Of a stretch of DNA of 64,000 bases, positions 21,773-27,913 are shown one piece after another. Both the position numbers and the translations under genes were made by a program. The notes under the pieces were generated by a model. The model was not told where the DNA came from, ran no database searches, and worked only from the letters and a program-made list of their open reading frames with translations. Location of the stretch: NCBI GenBank assembly GCA_001917435.1, contig MNEA01000124.1, forward strand, positions 1 to 64,000, written 5' to 3'. Position 1 is the stretch's first letter, and each line of letters starts with the position of its first letter. The DNA comes from Acidobacteria bacterium 13_2_20CM_2_57_6. GTDB taxonomy: Bacteria > Acidobacteriota > Terriglobia > Acidiferrales > UBA7541.

Positions 21773-22438
21773 ATGAATATCGATGGAGTTTTGAAAAAGA
21801 TTGGAGAAATTGGAATCGTTCCCGTCGTGAGGGCCGCCAGTTTCGAGGAAGCCCGGCAAGCGGTCGATGCCATTTGCGCCGGCGGAATCTCCGTGATCGA
21901 AATCACCATGACCGTTCCGAATGCGCCGGCGGTGATTCGAGAAGTCGTCCGCAAGTACGGAGACAAAGTGCTCACTGGAGCCGGCACGGTCTTGCGTTCT
22001 GAACAGGCGACGGAATGCCTGGATGCGGGAGCAGAGTTTCTGGTCAGTCCAGGCTTGTCCGTGCCGGTCATTAAAACGGCCCAGGCCCATGGAAAGCTGG
22101 CCATCCCCGGCGCGCTTACGCCCACGGAACTGATGATGGCGTCGCTCGAAGGTGCGCGCGTGATCAAGATTTTCCCTTGCGAAAACATGGGCGGCGCAAA
22201 ATACATCAAAGCTCTGAAGGCTCCTTTTCCGGGCGTGGAACTTATCCCCACGGGCGGAGTGAATCTCTCGAACGCCGCGGGTTATATCGCCGCCGGTGCA
22301 TTTGCTCTTGGGGTGGGAGCGGACCTTGTCAATGTGGCGGCGCTTCGCGCCGGGAAGGCACAGGAAATTATTGACGCCGCGAAAAAACTGGTCGAGGCTG
22401 TGCGCGAGGCGCGGGCAGCAAAAACTGCTGCGCATTAA
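21773..22438 (+). CDS. eda: KDPG/KHG aldolase
   Basis: This 221-residue class I aldolase has the family's usual length and active-site motifs: VIEITMTVPNAP (catalytic Glu near residue 44) and ARVIKIFPCENMGG with Schiff-base lysine near residue 134, plus LIPTGGVNLSNA for phosphate binding. It cleaves 2-keto-3-deoxy-6-phosphogluconate to pyruvate and glyceraldehyde 3-phosphate in the Entner-Doudoroff pathway. It is the last gene of the sugar-acid operon; 45 bases after its stop begins a tRNA fragment disrupted by an IS element. Confidence 0.93.
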   Translation: MNIDGVLKKIGEIGIVPVVRAASFEEARQAVDAICAGGISVIEITMTVPNAPAVIREVVRKYGDKVLTGAGTVLRSEQATECLDAGAEFLVSPGLSVPVIKTAQAHGKLAIPGALTPTELMMASLEGARVIKIFPCENMGGAKYIKALKAPFPGVELIPTGGVNLSNAAGYIAAGAFALGVGADLVNVAALRAGKAQEIIDAAKKLVEAVREARAAKTAAH

Positions 22439-22483: not shown

Positions 22484-22509
22484 TGGTGGCCCGCTAGGAT
22501 TTGAACCTA
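22484..22509 (-). pseudogene. 3' end of a tRNA-Ile(CAT)-like sequence, left part, cut by IS630
   Basis: Read on the minus strand, this piece ends in an encoded CCA preceded by the 3' acceptor strand, the 3' T-stem strand CCTAG and the T loop. It continues on the other side of the IS at 23674-23692. Joined at a single TA, the two pieces match the intact tRNA gene at 26583-26628 over about 45 bases, from the CCA to the anticodon loop. The acceptor strand is one base short, and the 5' half of the tRNA is missing, so it cannot be functional. It looks like an attachment-site remnant. Confidence 0.8.
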
Positions 22510-23608
22510 GTGTGCTGTCCCGTAAATACGTTCACATAGTCGTTCGACTTTAGCGAAGATTGAATCCGCCGTTGCGGTCCAGACAAACGGCTGCGCTCGG
22601 CGGTTGGAATTCTGGACGTAGTGATCGATTTTCTCGACCAAGTCTTTCACGCTACTGAACGTTCCGCGGCGAATGGCTTGTTGCGTAATACGGTTGAACC
22701 ACATCTCCACCTGATTGAGCCAGGAGGCATAGGTGGGAGTGAAGTGCACATGGAACCGTGGCCGTGTAGCAAACCAGCGTTTAACTCGCAGATGCTTGTG
22801 CGTGGCGTAATTATCCACGATGATGTGCACCTCCAAGTTTTTCGGCACGTTCTTCTCAATCTCCCGGAGAAAACTCAGATACTCCTGATGCCGGTGACGC
22901 GGTCGACATTTCGCGAGCACCTTGCCGTTCGCCGTGTCCAGTGCCGCAAACAGCGTGGTGGTTCCGTGGCGTCGATAATCGTGGGTCACTCCTTCAACAT
23001 AACCCAAGCCCAGCGGCAACATCGGCCTGGGTGCGTTCCAGCGCCTGAATTCCGCTCTTCTCATCTACGCACAAAACCACTGCATTTTCCGGTGGATTCA
23101 AGTACAGCCCTACAATATCCCGTACCTTTTCTACAAAAAATGGATCGCTCGAAAGCTTGAACTGTTTTTGCCGATGCGGCTGCAAGCCAAACGCTTGCCA
23201 GATGCGGTGCACCGTCGATTTCGATACTCCGGTCTCGTCGGCAATTTGTCGGATACTCCAGTGCGTTCCGGCTTTGGGTTTCGTCTTCAGCGTCTTGCGA
23301 ACTAATTGTGCCACTCGCTCGTCGCTAATCGGGCGTGGGCGGCCCGGGCGTAACTCGTCGTAGAGTCCGGACACCCCCTGTCTGAGAAATCGGCACCGCC
23401 ACAGACTTACCGTGACCTTGCTCGTCTCCAGTTGTCGCGCAATTTCCACGTTCGTCTTCCCAGAAGCGCTCAGCAAAATAATCTTGGCCCGACGAACGAG
23501 CCCAGCCGGAAGAGAACGCGAGTTAGCCAAGCTTTCCAGCTGTTCGCGCAGCTCCGCATCCAAAACCAACACCGCTTTCGGCCGTCCCATCGCCATAGGC
23601 ACCTCCAT
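22507..23608 (-). pseudogene. IS630-family transposase, frameshifted
   Basis: Two frames together encode a complete transposase of about 365 residues. The first (23608-22994) has helix-turn-helix segments (TNVEIARQLETSKVTVSLW and WSIRQIADETGVSKSTVHR) and the first catalytic Asp in LCVDEKSG. The second (from 23064) supplies HIIVDNYATHK and NQVEMWFNRI, completing the DDE triad. The frames join in ALERTQ/PMLPLGLGYVEG near 23025, where one extra G in the minus-strand run interrupts the frame. The stop codon TAG uses the TA target duplication. A programmed frameshift is possible in this family, but the site has no obvious slippery heptamer, so a mutation or read error is equally likely. Confidence 0.88.
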
Positions 23609-23671
23609 TGTGCAGGTGAGATGCCTATATTCCCAGCAATACTAATGCCAGTTATTTATGGGACAGAACAC
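22510..23671 (-). mobile_element. IS630-family insertion sequence, 1162 bp
   Basis: The element is bounded by a duplicated TA at 22508-22509 and 23672-23673, the hallmark of IS630/Tc1-mariner insertion. Its ends are near-identical inverted repeats: GTGTGCTGTCCCGTAAATA on the left and GTGTTCTGTCCCATAAATA read inward from the right, with two mismatches in 19. It carries one transposase gene on the minus strand, now frameshifted. The target TA lies inside the T-stem of a tRNA-Ile(CAT) fragment. The few terminal mismatches suggest a fairly recent insertion. Confidence 0.92.
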
Positions 23672-23673
23672 TA

Positions 23674-23692
23674 GGACCAACGGATTATGAGT
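23674..23692 (-). pseudogene. tRNA-Ile(CAT)-like fragment, right part (variable loop to anticodon loop)
   Basis: This is the continuation of the fragment at 22484-22509 after the IS630 insertion: on the minus strand it reads the anticodon loop CTCATAA, the 3' anticodon stem TCCGT, the variable region TGGTC and the start of the T-stem. Identity with the intact tRNA-Ile(CAT) stops at the 5' side of the anticodon loop, a usual crossover position for tRNA-targeting integrases. The next 220 bases (23700-23920) contain no gene I can support. Confidence 0.75.
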
Positions 23693-23920: not shown

Positions 23921-25798
23921 TCAGTCACAGTGCCCCACAACGGCTGTCGGAACCGCCGGAGGTTCCGGTTCGATCTGGACCAATTGGGTTCCCGCGCCCT
24001 GCGCCGGTTGCCCAAGGTCTACGTTCTTGCCGTTCGCGTAGATTTCGTGGCGGCCGTAGGTTCTATGCCATTCCGCCAGTGTTGCTGTACGGCTTTGATG
24101 CTCGACAACTTTTCGCCAACCGCCGCCGTAATAAGCGCAAAAACTGATTTCACCTTGAGTCGTTGCCACGGGCGTAGTGGAATTGCAGATTCCCGAGAAA
24201 TCGTAATTGAAGGCGTCTTGGAACCACATACCGTTTACGATCATGACTCTCCAGCGTCCGCCATACGAATAGGCTTTCTGAGACCAATGCTTGCTGCTAC
24301 CAGCAAGACGGTAGAAACAGTCCTCAAGCAAGGGGCGAAGTTCCCCGAGCCCAAACCCCGAGGGCGCCTTCTGCTGATTGAAATTGCGGACTATCGAAAG
24401 CGAGACTAGGATCCTAGTTGCTGTCGGTCCTCTTCCAGAGTCCGTTATTTCTACAGTGTCGCGCATGAATTGTTCCAAGTCGAAAAAGGTAGGAATCGGT
24501 GTCGCGGCTTTTTGCTGCGTGTCTACGAGCAAGGGGCTGAAGATCCCACGGTTGGGATGCGTCTCTTGGAAAAGGCTTCCTACTTTCGCCTCAGGGTTAA
24601 GGACATCGCACAGATGAGCGAATATCCCAAAGTCTGACAGTGGGAACCAGTCCCGCATTGGCTGCCAGCCAATCGAAGTCTGCTCATGCAGGTCGAAGGC
24701 GAGCTGCGTGAGAGGATAGCGCCGAGCGTATCGCTCGTCGGGGGATACGCGCTCGTCCCTGCCGGCAAACATGATGGGCTGAAAAACGACACCGTGGATT
24801 TTGTGTATGTTCTGAATCGCGAATCCGACAATATCGCCAAGGCCGTCGTTGTTGACGCTGTTGGTCACGGTAACTTGAAGCGTCGTTCGCATTCCGGCCG
24901 CAGCGATGTTCTCCAAAGCTTGCTGCTTCACTGCCATGTAGTTTCCCAATCCACGATGTTTGTTCTTTTCCTCGGAGACTCCATCCAATTGCAGGTATAC
25001 CGCGTGGAGGCCGGCTTCCTTCGCCTGCAAAGCAAAGTCTCTGTTCTCAGCAAAATGCACACCGTTTGTCGCAACGTGAAGTCGATGGAAACCCATGCCT
25101 TTCGCGTGGCGAACGGCATCAAGAAAAATCGGTGAAACTGTAGGCTCTCCTCCTGAGAAGAGAATGTTGATCTCTCGCTGAGGCTTGAACGAAAGTGCGT
25201 TGTTGAAAATCGTCTTTATGTCTTCGATGCTGAGTTCGTGAACGTAGCTGGAAGCATTCGCATCCATGAAACACGGCGAACACATCATGTTGCAGCGATT
25301 TGTTAGATCAACGATTAAAAACGTCCCTCGACCGGAACTGATGCTGTTTGGGCCATGAACGTGCACATTGCAATCGTCAACGCATTCGAAGTCTCTGCCG
25401 AACGCGAGGCGTTCCATCCTTCGAAAGAAGTCCGGGTGATTGGAGAGTGCATCCTCGAACGGACCATGTTTCTTGCAGGACTTCCGCATGAGGATGCGTC
25501 CTGCTTCTTCCACTATCTCGGCTTCGACAACTCCGGGGTTCTCTCGGAAATTCGCAATATCAATCTCACCTTTGAGGACAGCCTCCACTGCTTCGCGATT
25601 GCAGTCGGGGCATAGGGACAGAGTGCTCCTGGGGATGCCTGTCGGCATCGGCGCACGCTCGCGCCGTTTAAGAAGTCTGCCAGGGGCCCAGCTTGGGCTA
25701 CGCAAATTCCCCTCCGGGAAAACCTCGTTAATGGCCTTAGAAACCAGCCATGTTGCATTTGATGCCCCGCGAAGAACATGAGCCGTATTCCCAGACAT
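23921..25798 (-). CDS. Radical SAM protein, tetraether-lipid-synthase (Tes/MJ0619)-like
   Basis: The 625-residue protein has an N-terminal cysteine-rich region (C63-P-D-C66, C108 in KSCKKHG, C139 and C143), a radical SAM core with DLTNRCNMMCSPCFM (C169, C173, C176, a Cx3Cx2C cluster site), FSGGEPT for SAM binding, and a C-terminal region containing MWFQDAFNYDFSGIC and SFCAYYGGGWRK. This order, and especially the SLCPxC...KxCxxHG and FCAY segments, recalls MJ0619-like enzymes that include archaeal tetraether lipid synthase and bacterial membrane-spanning-lipid synthase candidates, which join alkyl chain ends. ATG 25798 has GAGGTGA seven bases upstream. Local base composition looks poorer in G+C than neighbours, and the gene lies between mobile-element scars, so it was probably acquired. 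Function is inferred from motif memory only. Confidence 0.72.
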   Translation of the reverse strand: MSGNTAHVLRGASNATWLVSKAINEVFPEGNLRSPSWAPGRLLKRRERAPMPTGIPRSTLSLCPDCNREAVEAVLKGEIDIANFRENPGVVEAEIVEEAGRILMRKSCKKHGPFEDALSNHPDFFRRMERLAFGRDFECVDDCNVHVHGPNSISSGRGTFLIVDLTNRCNMMCSPCFMDANASSYVHELSIEDIKTIFNNALSFKPQREINILFSGGEPTVSPIFLDAVRHAKGMGFHRLHVATNGVHFAENRDFALQAKEAGLHAVYLQLDGVSEEKNKHRGLGNYMAVKQQALENIAAAGMRTTLQVTVTNSVNNDGLGDIVGFAIQNIHKIHGVVFQPIMFAGRDERVSPDERYARRYPLTQLAFDLHEQTSIGWQPMRDWFPLSDFGIFAHLCDVLNPEAKVGSLFQETHPNRGIFSPLLVDTQQKAATPIPTFFDLEQFMRDTVEITDSGRGPTATRILVSLSIVRNFNQQKAPSGFGLGELRPLLEDCFYRLAGSSKHWSQKAYSYGGRWRVMIVNGMWFQDAFNYDFSGICNSTTPVATTQGEISFCAYYGGGWRKVVEHQSRTATLAEWHRTYGRHEIYANGKNVDLGQPAQGAGTQLVQIEPEPPAVPTAVVGHCD

Positions 25799-25804
25799 GA
25801 GCGT

Positions 25805-26143
25805 TCACCTCAACTGTGAGATTTCTCGGAAGGGCGAAATGGCCTTGGAACCGGACGACATGAGGACCCCATTGAGAGGTAGGGACATTGTATCTTGGAT
25901 GTCAAGCAAAGGTTCGCGGTTCGATCTCTGGAAATTTCTAAGCAGACGGGTACTAAAAGCATTCGCCGCAACGCTAGGAAGAGTATAAAAATTCAAGTGT
26001 GCTCTGTTGCGGACTTTTGCTGTACCAGCTTCAACACTCTCAAATAGTTCACCAACAATCTTATCTATTGCTTTAAAAACTTGACCATCACCAATGGCTC
26101 CAAGGAGCTCTCCGGTCGAATGTAGGAACGCCATTACTGCCAT
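25805..26143 (-). CDS. Unknown protein of about 112 residues, possibly a truncated gene, upstream of the radical SAM gene
   Basis: The ORF ends seven bases before the radical SAM start, and the radical SAM ribosome binding site lies inside its last codons, so the two would be translationally coupled. The deduced protein starts [19 protein letters not shown] and has amphipathic helices around [17 protein letters not shown]; no family is recognised. The frame continues upstream without a stop into IS30 transposase remnants (to 26344), so its original 5' end may have been lost at that junction. It could be a partner of the radical SAM enzyme or the tail of a disrupted gene. Confidence 0.4.
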
Positions 26144-26191
26144 GCAGCCGGCGGGCAAGCATAATGTGAGGCCGCCGTGTCTTTGCTTTCG

Positions 26192-26344
26192 CACCTTCAC
26201 GAGCGTAGTAAAACGCGAATGGCGTTCCACCAAAGTCGCAATGTGACTGTTCTTTGTGCCACCAATTAAATCACCCTCCCAATGACCGGGAATGGCGCGG
26301 TCCTCGATTTCTGCGGGTCTTTCCCGGATAGAGATGGCATCGAC
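26192..26344 (-). pseudogene. IS30-family transposase fragment
   Basis: On the minus strand this segment reads [25 protein letters not shown], then [18 protein letters not shown], the start of the IS30-family catalytic domain (DDE core; GHWEGDLI and TLVER are diagnostic). It spans only about 50 codons, lacks the helix-turn-helix N-terminus and the rest of the catalytic core, and is fused in frame to unrelated sequence on its 3' side. It is a decayed remnant. Bases 26345-26582 hold no supported gene, only a short plus-strand frame ending at about 26503 with a helical RHLAEAQKKIERYRVEREL-like tail. Confidence 0.82.
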
Positions 26345-26582
26345 GATTTAACCGCGGCACTGTCCGCGGACATGCGCGTGCCGCGAGCGGCGTATGCCAG
26401 CGGCATTTGGCCGAGGCACAGAAGAAGATTGAACGCTACAGAGTCGAGCGCGAACTGGCAGAAGCGGAGGCGCAGCAGAATACCGCTGACACAATGCAGT
26501 AGGGACTTAGAAGCGAAGTCCCCACATTTTTCACCACAGTCGGCGTTTTAGTGCAAAACAGATGCCAACCTAAGTCTTTTGT

Positions 26583-26658
<76 letters not shown>

Positions 26659-26827
26659 CACGCTTGAGGAACATTTTAGCCTGAATTTGCCCAATTCACC
26701 CGTACAGCCTCGCGGATTTCTGCTCACCCCTTTGCGGAGAGGGCGTCTATCGCCAGTGGGGTGGTCTGCCGGAGAGAAGAAAGACATTCGTATCGCTGTC
26801 TTGTGAGGAGAGGAGCAAGGTGTGATC

Positions 26828-27913
26828 ATGCGCAACGTGTGGAAGTGTGGTTTGGCCATGTTGTTGGGACTTGGCGTTTTGGCGGGGAGTGCGGGGGCGC
26901 AATTCAAGAATGGAAGCCAGCCGACGGAGCTGAATATTCCGCGGCTCAGCCAGCGCGGGACGGTGTCGCAGCGAATTGGGCTGACAGACGTCACGATTGT
27001 TTATCACCGGCCGGAAGTAGGCGGGCGGGAAATTTGGGGCAAGACGGTTCCTTATGGAAAAGTGTGGCGCGCGGGCGCGAATGAAAACACGACCATCACT
27101 TTTTCTGACGAGGTGAGCGTCGAAGGAAAACCGCTGGCAGCGGGAACGTATGGGCTGCACACCACTCCAGACAAGGATCAATGGACGATTATTTTCTCGA
27201 AGAATTCGACTTCCTGGGGCAGCTTCAGTTACGACGAGAAGGAAGACGCGTTGCGTGTAACTGCGAAGCCGCAAGCCGCGGATTTCCGCGAAGCGCTCAC
27301 GTACACGTTTGAGGAAGTCAAGCCGGATTCGGCGGCCGCAACGCTGCGTTGGGAGAAGCTGGCGGTTCCCTTTCACATTTCCGTGGACGTGAAGGCAGTC
27401 GTGCTGAAGAGCATCAAGAATGAATTGCGGAGCGTCGGCGGATTTACGTGGGCGGGATTCGACGAAGCGGCGCAATGGTGCCTGGACAACAATTACAACC
27501 TGGAAGAGGCGCTGAAGTGGGAAGACACTTCGATTCAGAATGAAGCGCGGTTCGAGAATTATGAGACCAAATCGCGCATTCTCGACGCCATGGGGCGAAA
27601 AGATGAAGCAGCGAAAGTGCTCGCTAGCGCCTTCGACAAAGCCACTGCCGTCCAGCTCTATGTTTACGCGCGCGGCCTGCAACGAACGGGAAACGCCAAG
27701 CGCGCTTTCGAGCTGTACCCGCAAGTGCCGAAGAAGGATGCGAATCATTGGGTGAGCCACCTGGCGCTCGCGCGCATCTCGTCGAACTCGGGCGACTTCC
27801 CGACGGCAGCCAAAGAAATGACGCAGGCAATCAGCGCAGCGCCGGATGCGACGAAGCCATTTCTCCAGCCGCTGCTGAAACGCCTCGAAGCGAAGGACGA
27901 CATCAATAAATAG
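26828..27913 (+). CDS. Secreted DUF2911 protein with C-terminal TPR-like region
   Basis: The product of about 361 residues has a signal peptide (CGLAMLLGLGVLAGSAGAQ), a DUF2911 domain (residues about 35-185: RGTVSQRIGLTDVTIVYHRPEVGGREIWG, WRAGANENTTITFS, AAGTYGLHTTP) and a helical C-terminal half with tetratricopeptide-like repeats (AAKVLASAFDKATAVQLYVYARGL, ALARISSNSGDFPTAAKEMTQAI). DUF2911 proteins are common in Acidobacteriota and Bacteroidota; their function is unknown. AGGAG and AAGG lie before GTG 26822 and ATG 26828; either could be the start. It stands alone. Confidence 0.85.
   Translation: MRNVWKCGLAMLLGLGVLAGSAGAQFKNGSQPTELNIPRLSQRGTVSQRIGLTDVTIVYHRPEVGGREIWGKTVPYGKVWRAGANENTTITFSDEVSVEGKPLAAGTYGLHTTPDKDQWTIIFSKNSTSWGSFSYDEKEDALRVTAKPQAADFREALTYTFEEVKPDSAAATLRWEKLAVPFHISVDVKAVVLKSIKNELRSVGGFTWAGFDEAAQWCLDNNYNLEEALKWEDTSIQNEARFENYETKSRILDAMGRKDEAAKVLASAFDKATAVQLYVYARGLQRTGNAKRAFELYPQVPKKDANHWVSHLALARISSNSGDFPTAAKEMTQAISAAPDATKPFLQPLLKRLEAKDDINK

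Follow-up and report, generated by a model that had tools for sequence, protein, structure and literature searches.

Bacterial brGDGTs serve to calibrate records of temperature and pH, and homologs of tetraether lipid synthase (Tes) in bacteria are taken as evidence of membrane-spanning lipids; to our knowledge, it is not settled which acidobacterial proteins make or tailor brGDGTs. The window, a 64,000-nt stretch from the genome of the soil acidobacterium Acidobacteria bacterium 13_2_20CM_2_57_6 (G000, 81.6% complete), contains a radical SAM gene that was assigned to the Tes/MJ0619 group from its letters, together with the suggestion that membrane-spanning lipid chemistry can be transferred horizontally. 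The question raised by this locus is whether the coupling of two lipid tails travels with the gene.

A Tes-fold protein in a tRNA-bounded segment

Bacterial Tes homologs were reported by Zeng et al. 2022 (PMC8941075). We distinguish here between A-, B- and C-type proteins in acidobacteria, the A/C split being defined in the present analysis, and the window gene is of the B-type. Its protein matched the Pfam families Radical_SAM (2.6e-16) and HMPTM (the MJ0619 N-terminal zinc ribbon; 2.2e-12) as well as the NCBIfam Tes model NF045702 (7e-73), the latter with 245.8 bits and hence under the equivalog cut-off of 450 bits. The closest sequence relative in the PDB was 7tol (MJ0619; 3e-51). In the AlphaFold model of the protein (m61e784e13a54; pLDDT 85.8), the best fold match was again 7tom/7tol, with Z 40.1 and an rmsd of 2.4 over 478 aligned residues, compared to Z 18.6 for the runner-up, and it spanned the whole protein. 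The assignment to the Tes/MJ0619 fold was confirmed.

The structure of the archaeal Tes, GDGT-MAS (MJ0619; 7TOL/7TOM), comprises a rubredoxin site, an [Fe4S4]N cluster (C73, C77, C80 and a His), the RS cluster and an [Fe4S4]C cluster with the labile ligand Met439 (PMC9433317). The window protein shares the whole fold and most SAM-site residues with it at ~28% identity, and keeps the rubredoxin-like CX2C..CX2H site (C63/C66/C108/H111) and the RS motif CX3CX2C (C169/C173/C176), which is present in all 20 proteins of the B clade. Unlike Tes, B-type proteins have an incomplete [Fe4S4]N set, in which the first cysteine is often retained and the third substituted.

The gene lies in an integrated segment bounded by tRNA-Met sequences, as had been predicted: an intact tRNA-Met gene forms one boundary and a direct repeat of its 3′ half, split by an IS630-family insertion, the other (Table 1). 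The IS630 transposase consists of two overlapping ORFs (22994-23608 and 22507-23064) and is possibly frameshift-expressed or broken. The spacing of 7 nt between the two putative promoter boxes upstream of the B gene is non-standard for sigma-70. DNA homology with the B loci of three other genomes (G008, G011 and G033) stops at 25905-25906.

Table 1 Features of the tRNA-Met-bounded segment and its flanks, in window coordinates
Feature	Position	Strand	Remark
KDPG-aldolase-like gene, other flank	21773..22438	+	Named by inspection
Repeated tRNA-Met 3′ half, part 1 (attR-like)	22488..22508	-	T-arm to acceptor
IS630-family insertion splitting the tRNA-Met repeat	22509..23672	-	Matching terminal inverted repeats
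Repeated tRNA-Met 3′ half, part 2	23671..23692	-	Anticodon to variable loop
B-type Tes-fold radical SAM gene	23921..25798	-	625 aa ORF
IS30/rve-like transposase remnant	25808..26347	-	Between tRNA and B gene; weak (rve E=0.026)
TTGACA (25900-25905) and TACAAT (25887-25892) boxes	25887..25905	-	Putative promoter upstream of the B gene
Intact tRNA-Met (CAT), segment boundary (attL-like)	26583..26658	-	Sole tRNA of the window
DUF2911-like gene, flanking	26822..27913	+	Named by inspection; adjoins B also in G008, G011 and G017

At 53.6%, the GC content at this locus lies below the average of 57.3% for the window and is the 11th lowest of 311 windows; the noted difference in base composition is real, but modest. 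GC3 was 0.59 in the B gene vs 0.88 in the A-type paralog of the same host. Within the segment, no gene was recognised as an intact integrase, and none of the PF00589 matches listed for G000 lies on the window contig; conjugation genes were likewise not recognised in this remnant. A peptide beside the tRNA (26354-26500, + strand), considered as a possible integrase tail, had no Pfam match and was dismissed.

In the sister species G019, which has no B, and G001, which carries B elsewhere, other DNA lies between the same flanks; the KDPG-aldolase-like flank shares its contig there with an intact tRNA-Met at a distance of ~4 kb, and B is absent from this contig. In another genome, G009, the space between tRNA-Met and a repeat of its 3′ half is occupied by 1.2 kb of unrelated DNA (L287, 9862-11171), with an HNH-like remnant seen by inspection. 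These different inserts at the same tRNA-Met site point to an integration hot spot. An exact empty site of the window locus was not found.

Single loss of putative C-terminal cluster ligands under constraint

In Tes, the first substrate carbon is retained through a bond to sulfur of an auxiliary cluster (PMC9433317). From their invariance we infer that C338, C455 and C470 of MJ0619 are the ligands of [Fe4S4]C, the text of the structure paper naming Met439 only. All three cysteines were kept in each of 68 A, C and Tes proteins, including MJ0619 and the host paralog. In contrast, C338 and C455 were missing in 20 of the 20 B-clade proteins, and C470 (C554 in the window protein) was retained in 17 and missing in three. 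Y459 was replaced in the entire B clade as well and kept in 66 of the 68 others; two C-type proteins (L222 and L226) have Asn at this position, with intact cluster cysteines. The window protein has R417, S540 and V544 where Tes has C338, C455 and Y459. The C-terminal motif FQDAFNYD...FCAY, on which the original prediction drew, is present, yet it keeps just one of the three cluster cysteines. Since MJ0619 variants M439A and Y459F/L remain active (PMC9433317), only the cysteine losses carry mechanistic weight. The C-terminal domain of B-type proteins may hold a cluster with unusual ligands.

Further B-specific residues at the active site were found in 19 or 20 of the 20 proteins: H241, Q308 (V236 in MJ0619), M343 (S271) and S540 (C455). 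S271 and V236 contribute to 5′-dAH binding in GDGT-MAS (PMC9433317). The replacement residues are fixed across both gp1 and gp2 acidobacteria, and their fixation at the active and SAM sites argues for a changed reaction.

In a tree of Tes, A, B and C proteins, B formed one clade (100/100) that adjoins the C group, sampled from families f43 and f44 and from Blastocatellia/Pyrinomonadaceae MAGs, and stands apart from A. When the diagnostic columns were removed, B was still a single clade in the resulting 88-row tree (SH-aLRT 100), on which the loss of the cluster ligands is one change. The clade lies outside the Tes clade and outside the bacterial clades keeping the cluster. Pairwise dN/dS values of B genes ranged from 0.107 to 0.208 in 11 of 12 pairs, the remaining one, the near-identical pair G032/G020, giving 0.51; the C-terminal domain was similarly constrained (0.13-0.24). 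Taken together, the single loss event, purifying selection and fixed B-specific SAM-site residues suggest that the B-type looks neofunctionalised rather than decayed.

Horizontal movement among acidobacteria

The B-type is patchily distributed and was found in 13 of 36 genomes of the genus, all genomes compared here being fragmentary MAGs; MAGs bearing the label Acidobacteria gp2 or Candidatus Acidoferrales are the source of the window gene's named relatives, and the host is accordingly most likely a subdivision-2 acidobacterium. Besides the tRNA-Met of G000, G008 and G017, it adjoins tRNA-Leu(TAA) in G005 and G033 and the 3′ halves of tRNA-Ser(TGA) in G001 and tRNA-Val(GAC) in G016. The tRNA-Met of G008 breaks off after nt 38, with the upstream region of B following within 16 nt. 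In G033 a tyrosine integrase lies behind the tRNA-Leu. G001, G020, G032 and L208 share, at 93-98% identity, a 7.4-kb block that encodes RepB_primase, EVE, SSB and B and, between G032 and G020, ends at the B stop codon.

In gp1 genomes, B occurs in conjugative-element contexts. The locus L205 (3071-15987; the same locus as in G436) encodes ArdC, a serine recombinase, two ParB/RepB proteins, B, TrwB and a TraI-like helicase; TrwB together with a TrwC relaxase was found near B in L204, and TrwB in L203. The L205 region represents an acidobacterial integrative conjugative element with a B-type radical SAM gene; in the open-licence literature we found no report of radical SAM genes as cargo of acidobacterial ICEs. 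Among viral contigs, phages and plasmids no relative exceeded ~33% identity, and a link of B to phage or plasmid databases was consequently dropped.

Comparison with rpoB points in the same direction. rpoB groups G022 with G032 at 99% identity, and their B proteins are 65% identical; the B data reject this pairing (AU p=9e-56), and rpoB in turn rejects the pairing of G017 and G022 seen for B (p=0.009). For rpoB, G012 and G025 were left out, their rows being wrong-frame extractions (~20% identity). Hidden paralogy could lie behind part of the conflict between the two trees. Altogether, patchiness, several tRNA scars, the rpoB conflict and recombinase or conjugation neighbours support horizontal movement of the B gene between acidobacteria. 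Horizontal transfer of the gene, as originally suggested, was hence upheld; B branches outside the Tes clade.

The A-type is distributed differently. Matches were found in 79 of 89 genomes of family f1, mostly of the A-type, which is near-universal there in native context with a GC3 of 0.80-0.89, whereas B is patchy and mobile with a GC3 of 0.57-0.64. In G000 the HMPTM zinc ribbon occurs in exactly two proteins, the B-type and an A-type paralog (G000:C159:47377-49125; L002, L111), the latter of 734 codons and 40-42% identical to B. Its context is colinear with that of genus-mates. We considered contamination of this contig in view of its gene's GC3 of 0.88 and 82% identity to the sister species G019, but a contig GC of 0.579 and the colinearity argue against it. 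A- and C-type proteins share the extended architecture with B at 40-52% identity and likewise lack the full [Fe4S4]N set, but their C338/C455/C470 are intact. By its residues, the chromosomal A-type appears the better candidate for membrane-spanning lipids than B, and a good candidate for the coupling enzyme behind iso-diabolic acid in these acidobacteria.

Possible roles of the B-type enzyme

We consider it probable, though by no means certain, that B is an ICE-borne single-cluster enzyme of the Tes fold that has lost the coupling cluster and tailors lipids instead of coupling two tails. B would travel as cargo on integrative (conjugative) elements of Acidobacteriota, and the tRNA-Met-bounded segment would be a remnant of such an element. 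The enzyme retains the Tes fold together with its SAM-cleaving [4Fe-4S] and rubredoxin-like sites, but would lack the C-terminal [Fe4S4] cluster, which in Tes carries the first substrate carbon in a C-S adduct; this cluster would have been lost once, before B spread. A long alkyl chain may still be bound, from which the 5′-deoxyadenosyl radical would take a hydrogen atom, and the resulting radical would be resolved without capture by a cluster, through ring closure, desaturation, isomerisation or a tailoring step of another kind. The products would then be modified membrane lipids, not two joined tails, and tail-to-tail coupling in the host would be the job of the separate chromosomal A-type paralog. 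A lipid role of B is suggested by the fold. The GDGT ring synthases GrsA and GrsB form rings in lipid chains and are judged from sequence to contain no cluster besides RS (PMC11186832); such alteration of lipid chains makes tailoring the most economical guess for B, the proposed likeness being mechanistic only, as lipid-acting radical SAM enzymes with just this cluster.

Were B instead a true membrane-spanning lipid synthase with the function of Tes or of bacterial Mss, which is described as having Tes catalytic architecture (PMC13274423), coupling itself would move horizontally, as originally suggested. The Tes fold, the preserved RS and rubredoxin sites and the horizontal spread are compatible with this. 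However, two of the three inferred [Fe4S4]C ligands are gone throughout the B clade and in none of the 68 relatives, the NF045702 score reaches little more than half of the cut-off, and a ligand-complete paralog already exists in the host, which makes coupling by this copy improbable. Somewhat easier to entertain, but still unlikely, is a non-lipid substrate, for instance that of a defence or element-maintenance enzyme. Carriage on mobile elements would fit such a role, as would AbiE-like or other toxin-antitoxin-like ORFs seen by inspection near some copies, a PADLOC pVip match (6e-16) and the second rank of viperins in the fold comparison (Z ~18). Yet the pVip match covers the common radical SAM core only (residues ~164-348), whereas that to Tes extends over the entire protein, with more than twice the Z score.

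It is also conceivable that B is a functionless passenger, decaying after its capture by mobile elements with concomitant loss of the ligands. Broken or shortened copies do occur: G059 has B in two frames, G436 a TGA inside the matched range, and the match in G420 stops at residue 557 of 625. The low dN/dS values, extending to the C-terminal domain, the fixation of the replacement residues across gp1 and gp2 and the single origin of the loss make this reading highly implausible.

Returning to single-cluster lipid tailoring as the favoured reading, one clade of Tes homologs being mobile and devoid of the coupling cluster means that counts of such homologs would mis-assign lipid producers. The split between A/C and B provides a simple residue test, C338/C455/C470, and a naturally cluster-less Tes offers a test case for the control of lipid radicals by radical SAM enzymes. 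More tentatively, and with slightly less than even confidence, we suggest that conjugative elements of acidobacteria bring with them a new class of radical SAM enzymes that act on lipids and remodel those of the host membrane in a single-cluster reaction. The class would have arisen once, when a Tes-like coupling enzyme lost its coupling cluster; membrane-lipid chemistry, though not tail coupling, would then spread by conjugation, possibly perturbing biomarkers of the brGDGT type.
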